The notes beneath the pieces are model-generated. The model searched no databases, had not been told where the DNA came from, and was given only the letters and a program-made list of their open reading frames with translations. A DNA stretch of 44,088 bases, taken from assembly GCA_002010665.1 (NCBI GenBank), contig MTON01000034.1, forward strand, positions 1 through 44,088, in the 5' to 3' direction. Position 1 is the first letter of the stretch. Each line of letters starts with the position of its first letter. Shown here piece by piece: positions 2,227-32,889 of this stretch. Source of the DNA: Candidatus Aminicenantes bacterium JdFR-78. GTDB lineage: Bacteria > Acidobacteriota > Aminicenantia > JdFR-78. A program made the translations under genes and the position numbers.

Positions 2227-4299
2227 TTACTTTGTTTCCTTAATTTCCTTTACTAATTTTTTAATTTTTTCTTGCTTAGGATTAAGACTAAGGGAAGCTT
2301 TTAATACATTGAGGGCTTCCTTTAATTGTCCTGTCTTAAAATAACAAAATCCTAAAGCATTTAAGAGTCTTATATCGCTATTATAAATCTTATTACCTTC
2401 CAATAAATTATTGATAGCTTCTGAATATTTTCCCTTTCCAGCAAGAGCTAATCCTTTTATTAGAAAATAGTCAAAACGATACTTTTCGTCTTCCTTTAAA
2501 TTTTCTATTATTTCTAAAGCTCTATCATATTTTTTATTCTTAACTAGAAAATAACCATATCTAATAACACCTTTTTTGTAATTGGGATTTAGTTTATATG
2601 CTTTTTCATAATTAACCATTGCATTATTTACAGCTCCAATTTTTGCATATTGATCAGCTAACATTAAATACATTAAAAATTTACTTGAAAGAGGAAAATT
2701 TTTTATCTTTACTATTGGATGACCAATTATTTCTGCAGGGGATATAATAAAAGTAGTCTTTCTTTTATCAATCATTTTTTTATCTTCTTCAAAAAGATAT
2801 ACAGTCATCTCATATAGATCTGGGACAAGTTTATTAGATGGTATGGTTTCAATAAGGCTTAAGAGTGTTCTATTATAAGGATAATTTTTAAGTTTAAAAA
2901 GAAGTGTCTTGATACTTTTTGTACCTTTAATTGAAATTTCCACTCTTCCTCTTTCCCATAGTTTCTTATTAATATTGGAAATTCCAATAAAAAAGACGAT
3001 TTCTTCTTTATTTGAAAAGATATTTTTTGGATCTATTAATAATTTCTTGTTTACTATTTTAAATGGTAAATGATTATTTACATCATAGTATTCAGTTTTA
3101 TAGCCCAATATTAATCCACATATTCTTGGATGAGGTGCGTTTTCTGGAAGATTTACATCTGTCTCATATACTGAGAACTCTTTTCCAACGGAGTTTTGTA
3201 AAAGAATAGTCAGTTTATAGTTTCCCTCAATAATTGGAAAAGAATCTTCAATAGAGAGACCATTCGCTTTAACTTTTTCAATAATTTCAGGTGAAAAGTA
3301 AAAGGGATAATTTTTCGTATACTGAAAAATAATTTTATCCTTTTTTCTCAAAGAGACATTAACTTTAAAATTACAAAAGTATTTATCTTTAGGTTCATAA
3401 TAATCTATTGAAATCTTTTTTGGAGCAATAGAGAAATGAACAAAATTAAGACCAAGCACAGGATCGGTTATTAAGGCTGTATAGCCATCTGACTCCACGT
3501 AATTAGTCAAATAATCTGTAGTTACTACACCTTTGAATCTCAAAAAATGAGTAGCATAAGAGGGATTTATTCCCCTCTTGGGAGCCTCAAGAATTTTAGA
3601 AATTATAATATTATTTCGAGTAGAGGGCTGATATCCATAAGGAATCTCCCCTGGGATCATAGATAAAGAGACTAAGGCTAATGTAGGAGCCATTTCACGA
3701 AGTTTCTCATATAAGGTTTCATAATCCATTGGATCTAGCCGTTTTCCCTCAACCATTAAACTTGCTGGACCATCCACAGCTGGATCATACAATTTATATT
3801 CTCCTACTTCTCCTTTTTTATAAAAAACTAATGCAAAATGTGGAGGAAGACCTTTTTCTTTATCACCATAATAATACCACACCTGTGTAGGATAAATGCC
3901 TTTTACTCCTTCGAATCTTTCTATACTTACTGGAGGCCCGAGTAAAATATAAAATTTTCCCATATCTGTCATCCATCCTTCCCTCGGTGAGCCTCTACGC
4001 AAATATTTATTTGCATAATTGAATCGTCGAATATGTTCCTCTCGAAATTCATTTTCAGGCGTCCCTGGAGTTGGGTCTCTAACTTTCCAAAAAGTCTCTA
4101 TAAATAAATCTCTTTCTCTGTCATTATTTAGTTTAAGAAAAACCTCTCGTTCTTGTGGAAGTATTATATAATGAACTAACTTAAGCCATTCCCGATATTT
4201 CTTTGGAAGTTCTTTTTCCGTTATCTTCTTCTCAGACGAGAATAACAGATATGGAATAATAAGTAGTAAAATAATTATTTTCAAAATCTTAATTCTCAT
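2227..4299 (-). CDS. GWxTD-domain protein with C-terminal TPR repeats
   Basis: A 690-residue protein with a signal peptide (residues 1-22, 'IIILLLIIPYLLFSS'). The GWxTD domain occupies roughly residues 30-200. It shows the hallmark 'FWKVRDPTPGTPENEF' (70-85), 'GWMTD' (108-112) and the following 'YILLGPP'. The middle is beta-rich, and residues about 545-685 hold four or so tetratricopeptide repeats. GWxTD is a domain of unknown function found in Acidobacteriota, Bacteroidota and relatives, often beside TonB receptors. Domain order and overall length match those of the gene at 35360-37399, so the two are paralogues. The gene lies 14 nt downstream of a shorter GWxTD lipoprotein on the same strand and is probably cotranscribed with it. 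Confidence 0.8.
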   Translation of the reverse strand: MRIKILKIIILLLIIPYLLFSSEKKITEKELPKKYREWLKLVHYIILPQEREVFLKLNNDRERDLFIETFWKVRDPTPGTPENEFREEHIRRFNYANKYLRRGSPREGWMTDMGKFYILLGPPVSIERFEGVKGIYPTQVWYYYGDKEKGLPPHFALVFYKKGEVGEYKLYDPAVDGPASLMVEGKRLDPMDYETLYEKLREMAPTLALVSLSMIPGEIPYGYQPSTRNNIIISKILEAPKRGINPSYATHFLRFKGVVTTDYLTNYVESDGYTALITDPVLGLNFVHFSIAPKKISIDYYEPKDKYFCNFKVNVSLRKKDKIIFQYTKNYPFYFSPEIIEKVKANGLSIEDSFPIIEGNYKLTILLQNSVGKEFSVYETDVNLPENAPHPRICGLILGYKTEYYDVNNHLPFKIVNKKLLIDPKNIFSNKEEIVFFIGISNINKKLWERGRVEISIKGTKSIKTLLFKLKNYPYNRTLLSLIETIPSNKLVPDLYEMTVYLFEEDKKMIDKRKTTFIISPAEIIGHPIVKIKNFPLSSKFLMYLMLADQYAKIGAVNNAMVNYEKAYKLNPNYKKGVIRYGYFLVKNKKYDRALEIIENLKEDEKYRFDYFLIKGLALAGKGKYSEAINNLLEGNKIYNSDIRLLNALGFCYFKTGQLKEALNVLKASLSLNPKQEKIKKLVKEIKETK

Positions 4300-4313: not shown

Positions 4314-5234
4314 TTATAATTTTATTTTAAAAATTTTTCTCGCCTTATTTATATTAGGTTCAACTTTTATTATAACATCAAAATAATAATTTCCTGATTT
4401 TAAATTATCAAAAGAGAATTTAAATTTTAAGAAGTCTTTTTCTAATAACTGTTTTTCGATTCCTTCAAAGTGACGACTTTCACGAAAGATATATTTTAAT
4501 GGTTTTCCTTTTTCATATATATAAAATTCAAATTCAAAATCTGCTTTAAGTTTACCATTTTCTTCAATGAAATATATTGATTTCAGAGGGACTGAAATTA
4601 TAATTTTTTTTTCTTTTTTATTATATTTCAGGTTAAAATCCATAAATTTTAATGGGAAATCTTCCTCTTTATATATTAATCCAAATTTTGCTCGCTCCAT
4701 TGCATCAAAAAAACTCCCATACACTCCAGAATATGGATCAAATCTGTAACTCCCGTCTCCTCTTTTATCTATAAATTCCACTGCAAATCTATAGCGATAA
4801 TAAATCCATAATAAGTATCCTTTAATATCCGGCCTATTTAATACAGGTCTTTGCTCGATTTTATCAGGAGGACCAAAATAAATATAAATTCTCCCCCTAT
4901 CAGTCTTCCATCCGGGAATTCCTTCATTAAAATGTTTATTTGCATATTCGATTCTTCTAAAAAATTCTTCTTTAAATTCATTCTCTTCTGTCGTAGGATC
5001 TGGGTCTCTTTTTTCCCAAAAGTCCTTTATAAACTCCTCTCTCGATTTTCTGTCTGGGAGATGAAGAAAAATGTCTTTCTCCTCCTTGCTCATAATAAGT
5101 CGAGCCTTTTCATAGAATTCTTTGCTTTTAGGGTCAAGCTGAATTTTTAATGAAGCGCAATTTATTAAAAAAAGGACAAAAAATAATAGAGGAATTAGGG
5201 GAAGAATTTTTTTATAATTTATTAAGCTTGGCAT
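4314..5234 (-). CDS. GWxTD-domain lipoprotein
   Basis: A 306-residue protein with a lipoprotein signal: hydrophobic residues 10-22 and lipobox LINC at 23-26, so Cys26 is the likely acylated residue. The GWxTD domain follows, with 'FWEKRDPDPTTEENEF' (72-87), 'GWKTD' at 108-112 and 'YIYFGPPD'. The C-terminal half (about 200-306) is beta-rich and lacks the TPR tail of its downstream neighbour. It lies between the receptor's terminator and the long GWxTD gene. The receptor terminator (5254-5288) implies either read-through or a separate weak promoter. Function is unknown; the context suggests an envelope complex with the neighbouring receptor. Confidence 0.8.
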   Translation of the reverse strand: MPSLINYKKILPLIPLLFFVLFLINCASLKIQLDPKSKEFYEKARLIMSKEEKDIFLHLPDRKSREEFIKDFWEKRDPDPTTEENEFKEEFFRRIEYANKHFNEGIPGWKTDRGRIYIYFGPPDKIEQRPVLNRPDIKGYLLWIYYRYRFAVEFIDKRGDGSYRFDPYSGVYGSFFDAMERAKFGLIYKEEDFPLKFMDFNLKYNKKEKKIIISVPLKSIYFIEENGKLKADFEFEFYIYEKGKPLKYIFRESRHFEGIEKQLLEKDFLKFKFSFDNLKSGNYYFDVIIKVEPNINKARKIFKIKL

Positions 5235-5313: not shown

Positions 5314-8300
5314 TTAGAACTCGAACCTCACTCCCAATCTCAAGACTCGAGGATTCAGAATCTCGTTGATTAACCCAGCAGTCTTGTTTGGAACAAATGC
5401 ACCACTGTGGACATAGTAGTTTCCAAGGTCTAATTGATATTTTCTGTTTATAATTCTGTTGTTAAAGACATTAAATAGATCTGCCATGATGTAGATTCGA
5501 CCTGTCTCTCCTAATTTTAGAACTTTTTCGAGTCTTAAATTGAGATTCCAGAAGTTCGGGAGTCTGTGAGTTCCAAATGGAGTTAGATAAACCCAAATAC
5601 TACGCTCAAGTGGGTTAGGAGCATTATAATCTATTATATTTACCCTTTCTCTAAGAATATGTCCCTCTCGAGCATTGAAGGTGAAGGAGATATTCACATC
5701 CCATGGCAATTGATAAAGTCCAGAGAGTTTGAACAGCCATCTTGAGAATACATACTGACTAACTTTACCACTACCACCGCCCATGTACTGAGCATACTGT
5801 TTACCATCTAAAGCCCAAATGTTTGTTGGATTGAGATATCCTTTATCTCCAAAATGGACTCTCTCATTTTGTAGAGTAAAAGAACCGTTCAGCATCCAGC
5901 GATTAGATAGACGCTTATTAAATCGAAGTTCTATACCCATGTAGTCTTGATAGTAATCGGGTCTTTCAGTTACATAAATGTAATAGTAATTTGGAACACC
6001 AGCTTTTCTGAGATAATAAGGTTTTCCTGCAGCATCCTTGGCAGGCTGAGTCCCTAAATTAGCAGGAATTGTTCCAACTTGAGTATAATCATCCTGTGAA
6101 CGAATTGTATTCTTGTCAGAGCCATCCCACTGGAGTTCCCAATTGTAATCGTGTAATCTTCTATAAGTGAAATCAAGTGCTACTCCAAAATCGGGTAGAA
6201 CTTCTCTTTCAATAGATACAATTACTTCATCAATTAAGTAAGAACCAACGCTCGGATCAAGTGTATATTGAGGCTTACCAGTTTTTTGAGGATTACTAGG
6301 ATCAAAACCACCCCAGCTCCACCACTCAGCAGCTGGAATATTTGCAATTATATTGCCATTGCTATCAAAAACTTGATGTAAGGAATAATCTCCAACATAC
6401 TGCCAGTACAATTCAGTCACATCAACTAAACCATTTCCATTATTATCAAGCCACCAAAAATAAACCCAACCACCTGTATAAGTGGGCAAGAAGTAATCAG
6501 CCCATCCAGTGTGCATAAACTCGCCATAACGAGCTAAATTCAATTTTGCAATTGTTTTACCATCTCCAAATACATCGAAAGTGATTCCAATTCTCGGTGA
6601 GAAAGTTTTCATAGCCCAATCAGGCTTTATCTCAGGAATCTTTAAACCAGGGAGAAATCTGTCAATTGCATTAATGGTTGTGGAGGAGAAATTGTCTTTC
6701 CATGCGCCATTATTAGGTTCTACTGCTGTCTTTGTGAATGCAGAAACTCGAGGTGCTTGATGGTCATAACGGAATCCGAGTAAGAAATTGAATCTTCCTA
6801 CTGAAATAGTATCACTAAAATAACCAGTATACTGAACAACTGTATTATTATCTCTCCATCCTCGCCAGGTTGCTATACGTTGAATTCCAGGAACAACATC
6901 AGGAATGTTATCACCTGTTACATCTACAGTTGGTCTGTTTCCATAATTGTAATACAATATTACATTACCGGATGAGCTCCAATAATGAGTTCCTGTACTG
7001 TGACGGAAGTCAAACCCAGCCTTAATTTCATGGCTTGCCCCTAACAATTCATCAGCAAAATAATTTAATTGGAAGTAAAGGGAATGAGATGGTCGGCTTG
7101 CATTGTATGCAAAATATGAATCTCTATAGACTCGGTTATCAACATCATATCTAAGGAGTCTATTCTGCTCCTCGTCTTCCATAGGAATCAAATTAAATCC
7201 CGCATCATTAAAGGAATATTTAAGAGACACAAACAAATTGTTCCCGAACATGTGTTCGTCTTGAACTTTGTAAATCGGGCTCCCAAAATGATATTTTCCA
7301 GTTTGATGCCATCCTCTCGGGAAAGTAGCGCTTGCAGATCTTCCCCACTTTTCCTTATTACCAATATGAGCAAAGAGCTCTAATCTGTTTTCTGGAATTA
7401 ACTGTAAATTGATTTTACCTGCATAATTCTGTAAGAGAGTATCATCAGCAGCTCCTGTTATAACATTAGTCTTTATGTCCTGAACACCAAATGACATCCA
7501 CCACCATGCTTTATCTTTTACAAATGGGCCTCCCATATTGAATCCATAGTCTTTAATATTGCGGATAACATTATATCCTGTCCAGGTTGGATGCAGAGAC
7601 AATATCTCATCAATCTCAGGTCCTGTATGGGAAGCTTGGAATTTAGAATCAACAAGATAGAATCTTCCACCAAAACTTACTTTATTTCCGCCTCTTCTTG
7701 TAACTAAGTTGATGCTGACACCACCTCCCTGTATAGTAACATCCTGTGCTCCTGTTGTAATATTTATTTCTTCAAAAGCATCGAAGTCATAATAGGTAGG
7801 TGAAGCTACTGCTGCTGGGTCAGTTATTACAACTCCATCTAAGCTCCATTGGTCGTAACCTCCTCCTTTTGCAAAAAAACCTGATTGCTGACCAGACTCT
7901 GAACCTCCAATGTTTTCTCTATCCACCATGATACCTGGTGCTTGCTGGAGAACAACCCATGGATCTCTTGCAGTAGGAAGAGATTGTAATTCTTCTCTCG
8001 TAACATTTTCAATTATGGATGTCTTTTTTGTCTGAACAACAGGGGTAGGAGCAACAACAGTTATTTCTTCTTCTAATTTTCCTAATTCCATGACTATTGT
8101 AATTTCAGTATTCTTACCAACAACAACTTGAATATTCTCTCTTATTACGGTTTTGAATCCTTTAAGTTCAGCCTTAATTGTATAATCAGTAGCAGGAGAG
8201 AGAGACATAAAACGAAACATACCATCTACACTAGTAACAACACTAATAGGAGCAGTCAATTTTCCTGTTAAAGTGACTGTAACACCAGGAAGAGGATTCC

Positions 8301-8409
8301 CTTCTGTATCAACTACTCTTCCATAAATGTTTCCTGTTCTTAACTGAGCATGAGCAACAAGGCATAAAATGATTAAGAACCCAAGTCCCATTAAAATTCT
8401 TTTACTCAA
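5314..8409 (-). CDS. Oar-like TonB-dependent receptor with carboxypeptidase-regulatory-like domain
   Basis: A 1031-residue outer-membrane protein. Order: signal peptide (1-21); a carboxypeptidase-regulatory-like beta-sandwich (about 24-110, 'GNIYGRVVDTEGNPLPGV'); a plug domain (about 120-240, with 'SLDGVVITDPAAV'); then a long beta-barrel rich in aromatic residues and ending in 'LGVRFEF', a C-terminal Phe typical of BAM substrates. Such proteins import or bind large ligands with TonB energy, or act as Oar-type surface proteins; the ligand is not readable. The start is TTG at 8409 with a strong AAGGAGGTG site just upstream. A sigma-54-type promoter precedes it and a terminator follows. It is a distant paralogue of the receptor at 29992-32826. 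Confidence 0.88.
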   Translation of the reverse strand: MSKRILMGLGFLIILCLVAHAQLRTGNIYGRVVDTEGNPLPGVTVTLTGKLTAPISVVTSVDGMFRFMSLSPATDYTIKAELKGFKTVIRENIQVVVGKNTEITIVMELGKLEEEITVVAPTPVVQTKKTSIIENVTREELQSLPTARDPWVVLQQAPGIMVDRENIGGSESGQQSGFFAKGGGYDQWSLDGVVITDPAAVASPTYYDFDAFEEINITTGAQDVTIQGGGVSINLVTRRGGNKVSFGGRFYLVDSKFQASHTGPEIDEILSLHPTWTGYNVIRNIKDYGFNMGGPFVKDKAWWWMSFGVQDIKTNVITGAADDTLLQNYAGKINLQLIPENRLELFAHIGNKEKWGRSASATFPRGWHQTGKYHFGSPIYKVQDEHMFGNNLFVSLKYSFNDAGFNLIPMEDEEQNRLLRYDVDNRVYRDSYFAYNASRPSHSLYFQLNYFADELLGASHEIKAGFDFRHSTGTHYWSSSGNVILYYNYGNRPTVDVTGDNIPDVVPGIQRIATWRGWRDNNTVVQYTGYFSDTISVGRFNFLLGFRYDHQAPRVSAFTKTAVEPNNGAWKDNFSSTTINAIDRFLPGLKIPEIKPDWAMKTFSPRIGITFDVFGDGKTIAKLNLARYGEFMHTGWADYFLPTYTGGWVYFWWLDNNGNGLVDVTELYWQYVGDYSLHQVFDSNGNIIANIPAAEWWSWGGFDPSNPQKTGKPQYTLDPSVGSYLIDEVIVSIEREVLPDFGVALDFTYRRLHDYNWELQWDGSDKNTIRSQDDYTQVGTIPANLGTQPAKDAAGKPYYLRKAGVPNYYYIYVTERPDYYQDYMGIELRFNKRLSNRWMLNGSFTLQNERVHFGDKGYLNPTNIWALDGKQYAQYMGGGSGKVSQYVFSRWLFKLSGLYQLPWDVNISFTFNAREGHILRERVNIIDYNAPNPLERSIWVYLTPFGTHRLPNFWNLNLRLEKVLKLGETGRIYIMADLFNVFNNRIINRKYQLDLGNYYVHSGAFVPNKTAGLINEILNPRVLRLGVRFEF

Positions 8410-8447
8410 TTTTTCACCTCCTTTTTAAAAATTTCATCTTTGCACTC

Positions 8448-8464
8448 TGCAAAAAATATGCCAA
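8448..8464 (-). promoter_or_regulatory. sigma-54 (-24/-12) promoter for the receptor gene
   Basis: On the minus strand the sequence is TTGGCATATTTTTTGCA. The GG and GC doublets are separated by exactly 10 nt, as in the sigma-54 consensus TGGCAC-N5-TTGCW. It ends 38 nt upstream of the TTG start of the receptor. No sigma-70-like element of comparable quality is seen on that strand of the gap. Confidence 0.65.
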
Positions 8465-8552: not shown

Positions 8553-8665
8553 AAAAAATTCAATTTTTTGAACAAAAATTCAATTTTTTGAATTTTTAAT
8601 AACTTCTAATTATTAAATAAGATATTAATTTTTTCATTTAAAAAATTCAGTTTTTTGGAATTTTT
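8553..8665. promoter_or_regulatory. three-copy AT-rich palindrome array (candidate enhancer or operator)
   Basis: Three related imperfect palindromes built on ATTCAATTTTTTGAAT occur at 8558-8573, 8579-8594 and, as a variant (ATTCAGTTTTTTGGAAT), at 8645-8661. They lie in the 347-nt gap between the divergent receptor and mutase genes, about 90-215 bp upstream of the sigma-54-like promoter. That is the usual distance for activator sites of NtrC-type enhancer-binding proteins. The rest of the gap is AT-rich and shows no gene. Confidence 0.45.
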
Positions 8666-8689: not shown

Positions 8690-8718
8690 TTGACATTAAA
8701 AATCACTTCTTTTAAAAT
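8690..8718 (+). promoter_or_regulatory. sigma-70 promoter for the mutase genes
   Basis: TTGACA at 8690-8695, a 17-nt spacer and TAAAAT at 8713-8718. The start codon of the mutase subunit follows at 8757 behind an AAGGAAGGTG ribosome-binding site. Confidence 0.7.
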
Positions 8719-8756: not shown

Positions 8757-10436
8757 ATGTTTTCCGAGAAAGAACTCGAAAAAATAAAAAAAAGAAAGGA
8801 AAAATGGGAAAATGGAACTTATTCTGAATCAATAAAGAAACTTCCAGAAAGAATGGAAAAATTTACTACTATATCAGGGAAGAAAATAGAAAAATTATAT
8901 ACTCCTCTTGATTTGAAAGATCTGGATTATTTGAAAGACTTAGGCTTTCCTGGAGAATACCCCTTCACCAGAGGGATTCATCCAACCATGTACCGTTCCC
9001 GTCTCTGGACAATGAGACAATTTTCAGGATTCGGGACCGCTGAAGATACAAATAAGAGATATAAATATCTTTTATCTCAAGGGCAGACCGGCTTAAGTGT
9101 TGCCTTCCATCTTCCAACTTTAATGGGAATTGACTCTGATCATCCTTTAGCTCAAGGCGAGATTGGAAAATGTGGGGTTGCTGTTGATTCCCTCGCAGAT
9201 ATGGAAATTCTTTTTGATGGAATTCCCCTTGATAAGATAACGACTTCAATGACAATAAATGCACCTGCTGCAGTTTTATGGGCTATGTATATAGCAGTTG
9301 CAGAAAAACAAGGGGTCTCCCCGAAAATTATTTCAGGAACAATTCAAAATGATATTCTTAAAGAGTATCTTGCACAAAAAACTTTTATTTTCCCTCCAGG
9401 CCCTTCAATGAAATTAACAATAGACACTTTCGAATATGGAGCTAAAGAAGTTCCTCGTTGGAATACCATTTCAATTTCAGGCTATCATATTAGAGAAGCA
9501 GGAGCAACTGCTGTCCAAGAATTAGCATTCACTATTAGAGATGGAATAGAATACGTTGAATGGGCAATAAAAAGAGGCTTAAATATTGATGATTTTGCTC
9601 CAAGACTTTCTTTTTTCTTCAATGCTCACAATGACTTTTTTGAAGAAATTGCAAAGTTTAGAGCTGCTCGAAAAATGTGGGCAAAAATTATGAAAGAAAG
9701 ATTTAATGCAAAAAATCCTCGCTCCTGGTGGTTGAGATTTCATACCCAGACTTCTGGTGTATCTTTAATGGCCCAACAACCTTATAATAACATAATTCGC
9801 GTAACAATTCAGGCATTAGCAGCTATTTTAGGAGGGACTCAATCCCTTCATACCAATTCTCTTGATGAAACATATGCTCTTCCATCCGAAGAAGCAGTAA
9901 CTATTGCTTTAAGAACTCAACAGATTTTAGCATATGAGAGTGGAGTGGCAAACACGATTGATCCACTTGGGGGTTCTTACTTTATTGAGAAATTAACTTT
10001 GGAAATGGAGAAGGAGGCTTGGAATTATATTAAAAAAATTGACGATATGGGGGGAATGGTAAAAGCTATAGAAGCTGGATTTCCTCAGAAAGAAATCCAA
10101 GACAGCGCGTATTGGTATCAGAAAGCTGTTGAGACAAAGGAGAAAATTATTGTTGGAGTAAATGAATTCAAAGCAGAGAAAGAAGAAGAGATACCAATTC
10201 TCTACATAGATGAATCAGTTGCAAAAAAACAATTGGAAAGATTAAAAGAAGTAAAGAAAATGAGGAATAAAGCCCTGGTAAGGCAATGTCTTTCTGATTT
10301 AAAGAAAGCCGCCCAGGACGATGAAAATCTCATGCCTTATATTTTAAAAGCAGTTAAGGCTTATGCTACCCTTGGTGAAATAATAGATTCTTTAAAAGAA
10401 ATTTATGGAGAATATCAAGAACCAATATCCTATTGA
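8757..10436 (+). CDS. mcmA1: methylmalonyl-CoA mutase-type catalytic (substrate-binding) subunit
   Basis: A 559-residue TIM-barrel subunit of a B12-dependent acyl-CoA mutase. It carries 'YPFTRG' (68-73), '[13 protein letters not shown]' (87-99), '[14 protein letters not shown]', '[10 protein letters not shown]' and '[15 protein letters not shown]'. Its size and lack of a B12-binding domain fit the split (archaeal-type) arrangement, with the cobalamin domain encoded by the next gene. The reaction in the family is succinyl-CoA to (R)-methylmalonyl-CoA. The close relatives isobutyryl-CoA, 2-hydroxyisobutyryl-CoA and ethylmalonyl-CoA mutases cannot be excluded without aligning substrate residues. 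Start ATG 8757 has a good ribosome-binding site. No epimerase or MeaB chaperone gene is in the window. Confidence 0.9.
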
Positions 10437-24692: not shown

Positions 24693-25673
24693 ATGAAAAA
24701 AATAGTTTTAAGCGGAATGAGACCAACAGGAGCTCTGCATCTCGGTCATATAGCAGGAGCTCTGCGTAACTGGATTAAATTACAGGATAAATACGAGTGT
24801 TATTACTCAATTGTATCTTGGCATGCATTGAGTTCAGAGTATAAAAATTCAAAGGTAATAAAAAATTATATATTTGAGCTTGCAGTGGATTGGCTTAGTG
24901 CAGGTCTTGACCCTGAAAAGAGTGTTATTTTCCTTCAATCAGAGGTAAAGGAGCATGCTGAATTACATTTATTATTATCCATGATTATTCCTCTTCCATG
25001 GCTTGAGAGAGTCCCTACCTTCAAAGAAATGCAAAAACAGTTGCCGGATAAGGAACTAAATACTTATGGTTTTTTAGGTTATCCAGTATTGCAGACAGCA
25101 GATATTATCATCTACAAGGCAAATTATGTGCCAGTTGGTGAGGATCAGGTTTACCACATTGAACTGGCAAGAGAGATTGTCAGAAGATTTAATCGATTTT
25201 TTGGAAAAGTTTTTCCAGAGCCAGAAGTTCTTTTAACAGAAGTCCCGAGATTGGCTGGAACTGACGGAAGGAAAATGAGTAAATCCTATAATAATGCTAT
25301 TTATATAGGTGACCCTCCATCAGTCATTGAGGAGAAGATTAAACCAATGGTAACTGACACAAGAAGGAAGAGAAGAAGTGATCCAGGAGAACCGAATGAC
25401 TGCCCTGTCTTTACTCTCCACAAAGCCTTTACTCCTGAGGAAAAAATAAATGAGCTTGCCCAAGCCTGCAGAAAAGCCTCAATCGGATGTCTTGACTGTA
25501 AAAAGGTCATTATAGATGAATTAATAGAGGAATTTGCTCCTTTGAGAGAGAAAAGGAATGAACTCCTCAAGAACCCAAAAATTGTATGGGATATTTTAGA
25601 AGAAGGAAATAAGAAGGCCCGAAAAAAAGCACAGCAAACCATGGAAGAGGTTCGTAAAGCCATAGGTTTTTAA
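24693..25673 (+). CDS. trpS: tryptophan-tRNA ligase
   Basis: A 326-residue class I aminoacyl-tRNA synthetase. It has the HIGH-type 'PTGALHLGHIAGAL' (residues 11-24) and the KMSKS loop 'GRKMSKSYNN'. Normal length. Its stop is one nucleotide before the scpA ATG. Confidence 0.95.
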   Translation: MKKIVLSGMRPTGALHLGHIAGALRNWIKLQDKYECYYSIVSWHALSSEYKNSKVIKNYIFELAVDWLSAGLDPEKSVIFLQSEVKEHAELHLLLSMIIPLPWLERVPTFKEMQKQLPDKELNTYGFLGYPVLQTADIIIYKANYVPVGEDQVYHIELAREIVRRFNRFFGKVFPEPEVLLTEVPRLAGTDGRKMSKSYNNAIYIGDPPSVIEEKIKPMVTDTRRKRRSDPGEPNDCPVFTLHKAFTPEEKINELAQACRKASIGCLDCKKVIIDELIEEFAPLREKRNELLKNPKIVWDILEEGNKKARKKAQQTMEEVRKAIGF

Positions 25674-29991: not shown

Positions 29992-32826
29992 TCAGAATCT
30001 CAGTCTTAACCCAAGCTGAACTCTTCTGGGCGGCCAGATATCACTATAAACCCATTGCTGTCCTGCTACTAAGGAGTAATCCATCATTCCATATGGTGTT
30101 GCTCTATTTAAAAGATTAAATGCTTCAAAACGAGCATGCAAGTGTATTTTTTCTGTGATTTTAAATCTTTTCTCAATACTTAAATCAAGTAAATAGGAAT
30201 CCGGCAATCTATGGTTATTGTCGCCTCTCTTTTCTACTGGAACATTTGCACTTCCCTGATTTAATCCATATATGGTTGCTGTGCGACAATATGGTGTCCC
30301 ATCTTGTATTTGAAAATTTACACTCGCAATTATACCATAAGGAAAGATGTAAGTTCCAAGAATTTTTATACTGTAACGTCTATCTCCAGGAAGAGGACCT
30401 TCCAAATTAAGAAAATTATTTGGATCCCTTGAAGCTGCATTATTCCACAAAATATTTTCGCTAAAAATCTGTCGTGTCACTCCTCGAGGATTTAACCCCC
30501 ACATTTTAGAGAAGGTGAAAGAAGCTGAAAGTTGCCACTTATTAGACATCCGCTTATTGAAAACAATAGAAAACATGCGAAATCGAGCATAGAATCTATC
30601 AGGATTTGAAATAATAATCTCCGGATAGTCGGCTTTTAAATTATATACTTGTATTGGCTCGCCAGTGTATGGATCTGAAACTGTTATTAGCTCATAGTAA
30701 TCATCCCATGTGCCTACAGCGGGTTTAAATCCTATCATATCCCTTGTCCATTTTTCTAAATAAGTAATACTTAATCCAAAGTTAGGCAAGATTTCACGAT
30801 CAATACCAATTGAGAATTGATCAGAATATGGATTTTTCAAATTTGGATCCACGGTAATTAATTCAGGTTTGTAAGAAGTTATCAATTCCCATTTTACTCC
30901 ATTCCACCAATACATATACCAAACAGGAGAAGTAGGAGATGGCAACATCCAATTGCCGTAAATCATTTGATCATAATATCGTCCCACATTAACTCTTAAG
31001 AGCGTTTTCCCATCTGGAGTTAGTTTAAAAGCTAATCCAAGTCTAGGTGAAAATACACTCCACTTTACAAGGTCTGGTCTACCAGGAACAATTTCGCCTG
31101 TTTCGATCCAATCGTATGTGTTAGGATCGACATCAATAACTGGTTGATCTGGAATCCAGCCAACATTACGGTCATATCTTAATCCTATATTAAAAGTTAA
31201 ACGGTCGCTTACGGTCCATGTATCATCTAAAAAGATTCCAATTTGTTCATTTGCTGCACCATAATGGTAAGGAGCCATTTCATATTTATATCTATATAAA
31301 TAAGGCACGCCTTGATAGTAATAGGTGTAATCTACATAGACAACTCCTGCACTATACCCTCCTTTTGTATCTGAACGACCTCTTGCATATTGAACTCCTA
31401 TTTTGAAATCATGATCTCCTGCAAGAAAATCTTCGGCAAAATGGGACAAAGAAGCATTAACCCCATGTTTAAAAGGCTCAAAATAGAAAATCCACCATGG
31501 TCCACCAGAAATAACTCCTGTATTTGCATTATAATAGGTTGGGCCTCTATAATAGTTATAAGGATAGCCCTCAACTTCTACTAGAGATTCATAATAATCA
31601 TAGCCACCCGAATAATTATATTTCAATTCAAATAAAGTCCTATCGGTTAGAACAGCAGTGAGTGTTAAGCTTCCCGTTGGTAAACCTCCTCTTTCCGAGC
31701 AAACTGCCTCACGATTTCCATATTCAGGAGTAAATGCATTAGGAAGATCAAACCATTCATAATTAAAGAAACCACTCAACTTGATATTTTTAGTAAGCTG
31801 CACAGTTGTCTTAAAAAATATTTGGGTATCGTCGAATTTTGAAAAATATTTTGGATCTGTTCCAGGAGGAGTTGAAGCATCAACTTGTTTCCAGAAGGAT
31901 AAGAAAAACCACATTTTATCTCTAATTATAGGTCCACCTAATTGAAAACTTACATCATAAAACTGTTCTCTATGATATGGAAATTTTTCCTCCGAGGTGA
32001 TATAACCTGCTTCAAGAAGATCCTGAAGATAATCTTTTGAATTATCTGCTGTAAGGTCATCATGCTGAAATAGAAACCCTGCTCCACCACTAAATTTATT
32101 TCCACCTGATTTTGTTACAACATTTATTGTAACGCCCATAAAATTACCATATTCTGCTTTACTCCCAATTCCTATAATTTGAAGCTCTTCAATTACATCT
32201 GGATTCAGCCATGCCCATGCAGCTCCATAATCAGGAGATGTAGTATCAACACCGTCAAATAAATAAACATTCGATTCAGAACTTGTACCATAAGCGACTG
32301 TTCGAGTAGAGTCTGTTGTTCCATAATGAGACCAAAGTCCTGGTGTTGAATTTACTAAATCAAAGAAGCACATTCTTAACAATGGTAAATTTTCCATCAC
32401 TTCAGATTCCCATGTTGTAGATACTCCAGATTTTGTTACATCTACAACTGGTGTTTCTGCAACCACTGTAACTTTTTCCTTTATTACAGCAGTCTTTAGA
32501 ACAATATCTAAACTAACTGTAGTGTCTACTTTAACATCAATTCCCTTTTGGGTTAAAGTCTGAAAACCTTCAAGGGAAAATGTAAGTTCATAAATTCCAG
32601 GAGGTAAATTTGGAAAGAAAAATATCCCCTTTTTACTCGTTGTTGTTGTCCTCGGACCTCCTATTAGGGCAGGACCTCTAACCTCTACAGTTACTCCGGG
32701 TAGAACTTCACCTTCTTCGTCCTTAACAACTCCTTTTATAGAACCAGTGAGAATCTGTCCCGGCAAGTAAAATGAAATTCCCATAATTAAAAAAATAACT
32801 AACGATAAAATAAATTTTTGTTTCAT
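29992..32826 (-). CDS. Oar-like TonB-dependent receptor with carboxypeptidase-regulatory-like domain
   Basis: 944 residues. Signal peptide (1-24), carboxypeptidase-regulatory-like domain (about 28-115, 'GSIKGVVKDEEGEVLPGV'), plug domain (about 120-245, 'NVYLFDGVDTTSPDYG' and 'GVTINVVTKSGGNKFSGG'), then a large barrel ending 'RRVQLGLRLRF'. It is an outer-membrane protein; the ligand is unknown. ATG 32826 has GTAGGAGGGGG upstream. The sulfatase-TPR gene on the same strand lies just beyond its promoter. Its architecture is that of the receptor at 5314-8409, but the barrels are clearly diverged. Confidence 0.88.
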   Translation of the reverse strand: MKQKFILSLVIFLIMGISFYLPGQILTGSIKGVVKDEEGEVLPGVTVEVRGPALIGGPRTTTTSKKGIFFFPNLPPGIYELTFSLEGFQTLTQKGIDVKVDTTVSLDIVLKTAVIKEKVTVVAETPVVDVTKSGVSTTWESEVMENLPLLRMCFFDLVNSTPGLWSHYGTTDSTRTVAYGTSSESNVYLFDGVDTTSPDYGAAWAWLNPDVIEELQIIGIGSKAEYGNFMGVTINVVTKSGGNKFSGGAGFLFQHDDLTADNSKDYLQDLLEAGYITSEEKFPYHREQFYDVSFQLGGPIIRDKMWFFLSFWKQVDASTPPGTDPKYFSKFDDTQIFFKTTVQLTKNIKLSGFFNYEWFDLPNAFTPEYGNREAVCSERGGLPTGSLTLTAVLTDRTLFELKYNYSGGYDYYESLVEVEGYPYNYYRGPTYYNANTGVISGGPWWIFYFEPFKHGVNASLSHFAEDFLAGDHDFKIGVQYARGRSDTKGGYSAGVVYVDYTYYYQGVPYLYRYKYEMAPYHYGAANEQIGIFLDDTWTVSDRLTFNIGLRYDRNVGWIPDQPVIDVDPNTYDWIETGEIVPGRPDLVKWSVFSPRLGLAFKLTPDGKTLLRVNVGRYYDQMIYGNWMLPSPTSPVWYMYWWNGVKWELITSYKPELITVDPNLKNPYSDQFSIGIDREILPNFGLSITYLEKWTRDMIGFKPAVGTWDDYYELITVSDPYTGEPIQVYNLKADYPEIIISNPDRFYARFRMFSIVFNKRMSNKWQLSASFTFSKMWGLNPRGVTRQIFSENILWNNAASRDPNNFLNLEGPLPGDRRYSIKILGTYIFPYGIIASVNFQIQDGTPYCRTATIYGLNQGSANVPVEKRGDNNHRLPDSYLLDLSIEKRFKITEKIHLHARFEAFNLLNRATPYGMMDYSLVAGQQWVYSDIWPPRRVQLGLRLRF

Positions 32827-32860: not shown

Positions 32861-32889
32861 AATATATATAAGAAATAATTTGAAGTCAA
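32861..32889 (-). promoter_or_regulatory. sigma-70 promoter for the second receptor gene
   Basis: On the minus strand: TTGACT (32889-32884), a 17-nt spacer, TATATT (32866-32861), 35 nt before the ATG. It contrasts with the sigma-54-type element of the paralogous receptor. Confidence 0.7.

Follow-up and report, generated by a model that had tools for sequence, protein, structure and literature searches.

We identified a sigma-54 regulon of Oar-like TonB-dependent receptors that extends over the class Aminicenantia and has apparently not been described previously. The analysis started from the window, a stretch of 44,088 nucleotides of Candidatus Aminicenantes bacterium JdFR-78 (contig MTON01000034.1), in which positions 8448-8464 are judged to be the genuine sigma-54 promoter of an Oar-like receptor gene. 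Probably, this gene belongs to a dedicated sigma-54 receptor regulon that is run by a histidine kinase and response regulator encoded elsewhere in the genome (C19), acting via a tandem box and DNA looping. The promoter, the box, the conservation of both, the regulon and the conserved kinase/regulator pair were all computed from the genomes.

Aminicenantia are widespread, for the most part uncultured bacteria in which the control of nutrient uptake is almost unexplored. A regulon spanning the class, for which a box, a promoter and a candidate sensor are defined, provides a testable regulatory assignment for a large receptor family, whose regulon members become predictable from sequence alone.

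The receptor gene and its -24/-12 promoter

On the minus strand, positions 8464-8448 read TTGGCATATTTTTTGCA (TGCAAAAAATATGCCAA on the plus strand), which is an exact -24/-12 site. Sigma-54 promoters require GG and GC doublets with ten bases between them, and the site displays this GG-N10-GC arrangement within the consensus TTGGCACG-N4-TTGCA. The preliminary description had claimed a sigma-54 promoter before an Oar-like receptor gene, with the strict 10-nt spacing, on the correct strand and 38 nt before the start; all of this was borne out, the last promoter base (8448) lying 38 nt ahead of the TTG start at 8409. The genome also encodes the machinery whose presence that description had left to be checked, namely RpoN (PF04552, E 3.9e-60), so that the objection of a missing rpoN fails, and NtrC-type activators, with 18 matches to the activator ATPase domain PF00158 (Sigma54_activat) above the cut-off, 17 of them strong or partial and one weak.

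When two mismatches to TGGCAYN5TTGC are allowed, hits in the window are as frequent as expected by chance; the weight therefore rests solely on exact matching and on context. The site at 8448-8464 is the only exact match in the intergenic DNA of the window; a second one (25119-25133) lies antisense within an ORF. Over the 2.53-Mb genome, 37 exact matches were counted against none for the reversed pattern used as a control, and among the sites examined most exact ones are intergenic with a close downstream start.

To follow the promoter across genomes, homologues of the receptor were picked by protein similarity alone, and upstream sequence was at hand for 28 of those in other genomes. The exact promoter was found at most 420 nt upstream of 17 of these 28, at 35-60% protein identity (reversed pattern, 0; coding windows, 0/168), and with one mismatch before several more. 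While its distance to the start ranges from about 30 to 250 nt, the site is preserved, an argument for the promoter itself being under selection. The box described below or the promoter is missing in some homologues (L067, L074, L075).

The features of the window are collected in Table 1. The N-terminus that results from the TTG start looks like a signal peptide, as it does in the homologues, and the protein has an N-terminal CarboxypepD_reg domain (PF13620, E 4e-16). No full barrel match was obtained in Pfam or NCBIfam, the SusC/RagA model matching only weakly (27.5 bits for a cut-off of 368), and a sequence search of solved structures recovered the N-terminal domain alone. The receptor class was settled by a fold search with an AlphaFold2 model built from 15 homologues (pLDDT 81), which has the plug and barrel fold of TonB-dependent transporters and whose best PDB matches belong to this class (FusA, E 2.6e-29). 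Since the genome also encodes TonB (five TonB_C matches), the earlier naming of the protein as an Oar-like TonB receptor was right. The N-terminal CarboxypepD_reg domain, plug and TonB-dependent barrel are shared with SusC/RagA-type proteins and with Oar of Myxococcus xanthus, for which the available excerpts of PMC6434023 describe no sigma-54 control of oar.

Table 1. Features around the two receptor genes of the window, with positions in the window
Feature	Position	Strand	Basis
GWxTD/TPR protein, possibly co-transcribed with the receptor	2227-4299	-	operon inferred
GWxTD-domain protein, possibly co-transcribed with the receptor	4314-5234	-	operon inferred
Oar-like TonB-dependent receptor, 1031 aa, TTG start	5314-8409	-	domain match, predicted fold
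Shine-Dalgarno AAGGAGGTG, 5 nt upstream of the TTG start	8415-8423	-	sequence
Predicted transcription start, 12 nt past the C of the -12 GC doublet	8437	-	inferred from the promoter
Sigma-54 (-24/-12) promoter TTGGCATATTTTTTGCA	8448-8464	-	exact match, genome and homologue controls
Putative activator box 1, palindrome TTCAATTTTTTGAA, centre about -128	8559-8572		conserved in homologues
Putative activator box 2, palindrome TTCAATTTTTTGAA, centre about -148	8579-8592		conserved in homologues
Third box, imperfect, TTCAGTTTTTTGGA	8646-8659		weak, resemblance only
Sigma-70-like promoter TTGACA-17-TAAAAT of the divergent methylmalonyl-CoA mutase gene (8757-10436)	8690-8718	+	
Sigma-70-like promoter TTGACT-17-TATATT of the second receptor (29992-32826)	32861-32889	-	10/12 match

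The second receptor of the window has the sigma-70 promoter already ascribed to it in the preliminary description, and both the sigma-54 site and the box are absent upstream of this gene and of its closest homologue (L241). The contrasting promoters fit the further proposal that the two receptors respond to different signals, but the split does not follow subfamilies, since more distant relatives of the second receptor have both site and box.

A tandem box and the receptor regulon of Aminicenantia

The window promoter is preceded by two perfect palindromes, 20 bp apart, whose positions fall within the range of about -80 to -200 at which upstream activator sequences are located. Their degenerate form, TYCAAN4TTGRA, was detected before 23 of the 28 homologues (reversed motif, 0; coding windows, 2/168) and occurs jointly with the exact promoter in 16 of them. 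Paired boxes are mostly spaced by 18-20 bp, about two helical turns, and the box mostly starts 70-130 nt ahead of the -24 element. A box frequency of 95/106, being partly a product of selection, was left out as evidence.

The composite of box and promoter is present in 66 of 119 Aminicenantia genomes, and its reversed form, used as a control, in none; these counts come from related genomes of one class, spanning some ten families, and do not represent independent events. Eighty composite places were sampled regardless of the gene behind them. A downstream ORF was available for 76, and the first such ORF encodes a CarboxypepD_reg protein, i.e. an Oar-like receptor, in 70 cases, so the box marks a regulon of Oar-like receptors. 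In the genome of the window, box and promoter together precede the receptors on C20 (the window), C3 and C33 as well as the kinase/regulator operon on C19. On C5, the receptor most closely paralogous to that of the window has the promoter together with boxes that are only degenerate.

Other sigma-54 promoters of this genome are accompanied by a second palindrome, TGACAN5TGTCA, or by none. This second palindrome (L020, L022, L030, L031, L033, L035) stands before a pilin-like gene, a gene for an HD-domain protein and others, and we read it as the mark of a putative separate activator regulon. On C3, the box-preceded receptor gene (G000:C3:84743-87313, L081) lies directly upstream of a gene for an M4 thermolysin-like protease, an adjacency that recalls the Oar-dependent protease secretion in Myxococcus (PMC6434023).

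Neither sigma-54 control of these receptors nor the box TYCAAN4TTGRA with its receptor regulon was found in the literature searched. The control of surface functions by sigma-54 is a theme shared with Francke et al. 2011 (PMC3162934), whose text mentions neither TonB nor Acidobacteria. A survey (PMC12316311) reports an unconfirmed enrichment of TonB itself in Flavobacteriia and no such receptors. The mechanism is canonical, and the novelty appears to reside in the regulon, its box and its assignment.

A candidate activator pair and competing explanations

The operon on C19 encodes a histidine kinase of 938 amino acids (C19:13053-15866; PDZ, membrane segments, GAF, PAS, HisKA and HATPase) followed by an NtrC-type response regulator (C19:11661-13046) composed of a receiver, an AAA+ module with GAFTGA and a Fis-type helix-turn-helix. 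The latter is conserved (KPTTLNEMIKRL), with a near-invariant recognition helix. The kinase was found in 59 of 60 genomes, with matches restricted to its C-terminal half in f4 genomes, and in about 25 genomes it is adjoined by the regulator at 65-71% identity. Within named genomes, all full-length relatives of the kinase belong to Candidatus Aminicenantes. The pair resembles the NtrC-family systems AtoSC, ZraSR and NtrBC in having a receiver-AAA+(GAFTGA)-Fis-type regulator beside a histidine kinase, tandem palindromic upstream boxes, -24/-12 promoters and a box at its own operon. It scores below the NCBIfam cut-off of each named member listed (AtoC, 504/714 bits; AtoS, 300/646), and the kinase differs from those of the three systems by its N-terminus with a PDZ domain and multiple membrane segments.

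The activator was assigned by site co-occurrence alone. The box is present at the kinase operon (G000:C19:15969-16012), and upstream of the kinase in L101-L123, L294 and L295. Sixteen of 30 kinase loci have a box at most 300 nt upstream of the kinase, two f4 genomes also showing it, and these loci contain 20 boxes in 172 kb against none for the reversed motif. The regulator has separated from the kinase in f2 genomes, two of which place it two genes from an Oar receptor that carries tandem TCCAAN4TTGGA boxes. The kinase-operon box, this synteny and the conservation of kinase and regulator make the pair the best candidate activator, which probably switches on the receptor family through the tandem box.

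We first assumed that sigma-54 autoregulation linked the kinase operon to the regulon in general, and dropped this idea because a sigma-54 site accompanies the kinase box only in the genome of the window and in G005 (one mismatch). Elsewhere, a box at the kinase operon without such a site is common and probably serves another kind of autoregulation. Family f2 (L078, L079, L248, L250-L252) is peculiar in its -12 element, TTGA instead of TTGC, in its boxes, often TCCAAN4TTGGA, and in the altered recognition helix of its orphan regulator, KSTTFNEMLKRL; RpoN, regulator and sites may possibly be co-evolving there.

In the proposed mechanism, the C19 kinase would sense a signal and phosphorylate its partner regulator, which would bind the tandem TYCAAN4TTGRA (8559-8592), some 130-150 bp before the start. 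Through DNA looping, the bound regulator would make the sigma-54 polymerase complex at 8448-8464 melt in an ATP-dependent manner, and transcription would begin near 8437 to cover the receptor gene and perhaps both GWxTD genes behind it. The same box would govern the other Oar-like receptors of this genome and of Aminicenantia, together with the kinase/regulator operon. Binding, activation, transcription start, operon extent and signal are the parts of this model that we infer.

The most serious competitor keeps the sigma-54 promoter and attributes its activation to another enhancer-binding protein of the genome. With about 17 activator ATPase matches to choose from, and a sigma-54 site next to the kinase-operon box in two genomes only, it has candidates at hand; yet among the activator genes fetched from this genome, box and promoter occur solely at the C19 operon, and the concentration of boxes upstream of the kinase and the f2 synteny of the regulator with a box-bearing receptor point back to the C19 pair, so we regard another activator as unlikely. 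Recognition of the palindromes by a repressor or other DNA-binding protein of receptor genes, instead of the sigma-54 activator, would account for the box standing without a sigma-54 site at most kinase operons, as such a protein can act at other promoters. Against this, the box accompanies a sigma-54 site at activator distance and in tandem at about 20 bp, a distance and spacing typical of enhancer-binding proteins, and we consider this reading quite improbable.

Least probable of all is a chance origin of the -24/-12 match within an AT-rich leader, the gene being read from an unseen sigma-70 promoter. The region is indeed AT-rich, loose matches in the window are at the level expected by chance, and a weak sigma-70-like match (9/12) can be found on the minus strand at 8637-8609, but a chance origin was rejected on the grounds of the genome-wide control (37 exact sites against 0) and the recurrence of the site before homologues of 35-60% identity (17/28 against 0). 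A sigma-54 promoter activated by the C19 pair through the tandem box hence remains the preferred explanation.

Leaders of the receptor mRNAs

Among 66 leaders of at least 85 nt from relatives and paralogues, 64 contain a strong Shine-Dalgarno sequence 62-137 nt before the true start, and in 59 of these 64 it is followed by no ATG, GTG or TTG at a usable spacing. RGAGGTG occurs 61 times in the 8481 nt of leader sequence, against 2 for the reversed motif. The long leaders (L052-L083, L160-L255) thus carry a AAGGAGGTGAKAA-like sequence devoid of a start codon, which in most of them agrees at 10-13 of 15 positions with the complement of the 16S 3' end; in the genome of the window this concerns L082 (C5), L083 (C33) and L081/L255 (C3). 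In the window's own receptor gene the leader is short (about 28 nt), and the element is the ordinary Shine-Dalgarno.

The start-less element resembles a STAB-SD or a standby site. As in the STAB-SD of Bacillus thuringiensis cry3A (PMC4113751), a strong Shine-Dalgarno without a start codon is located far upstream in most long leaders; the Aminicenantia leaders differ by belonging to another phylum and by the frequent addition of a hairpin. No Rfam family matched the long leaders above its cut-off. STAB-SD elements protect against the 5'-3' exoribonuclease RNase J, for which a search with the C-terminal domain RNase_J_C found no match in the genome. We hold evenly balanced the broader view that one core two-component system controls the Oar-like receptors of Aminicenantia via sigma-54 and that the start-less leaders, often with a hairpin, would add a post-transcriptional layer, either stabilising or standby. 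The hairpin is seen in about 23 leaders (e.g. L195, L059, L076), where it is followed by AGGG and shows compensatory changes; in alignment A3 these affect 6/6 pairs, a weak indication given that the sequences were preselected for the hairpin.
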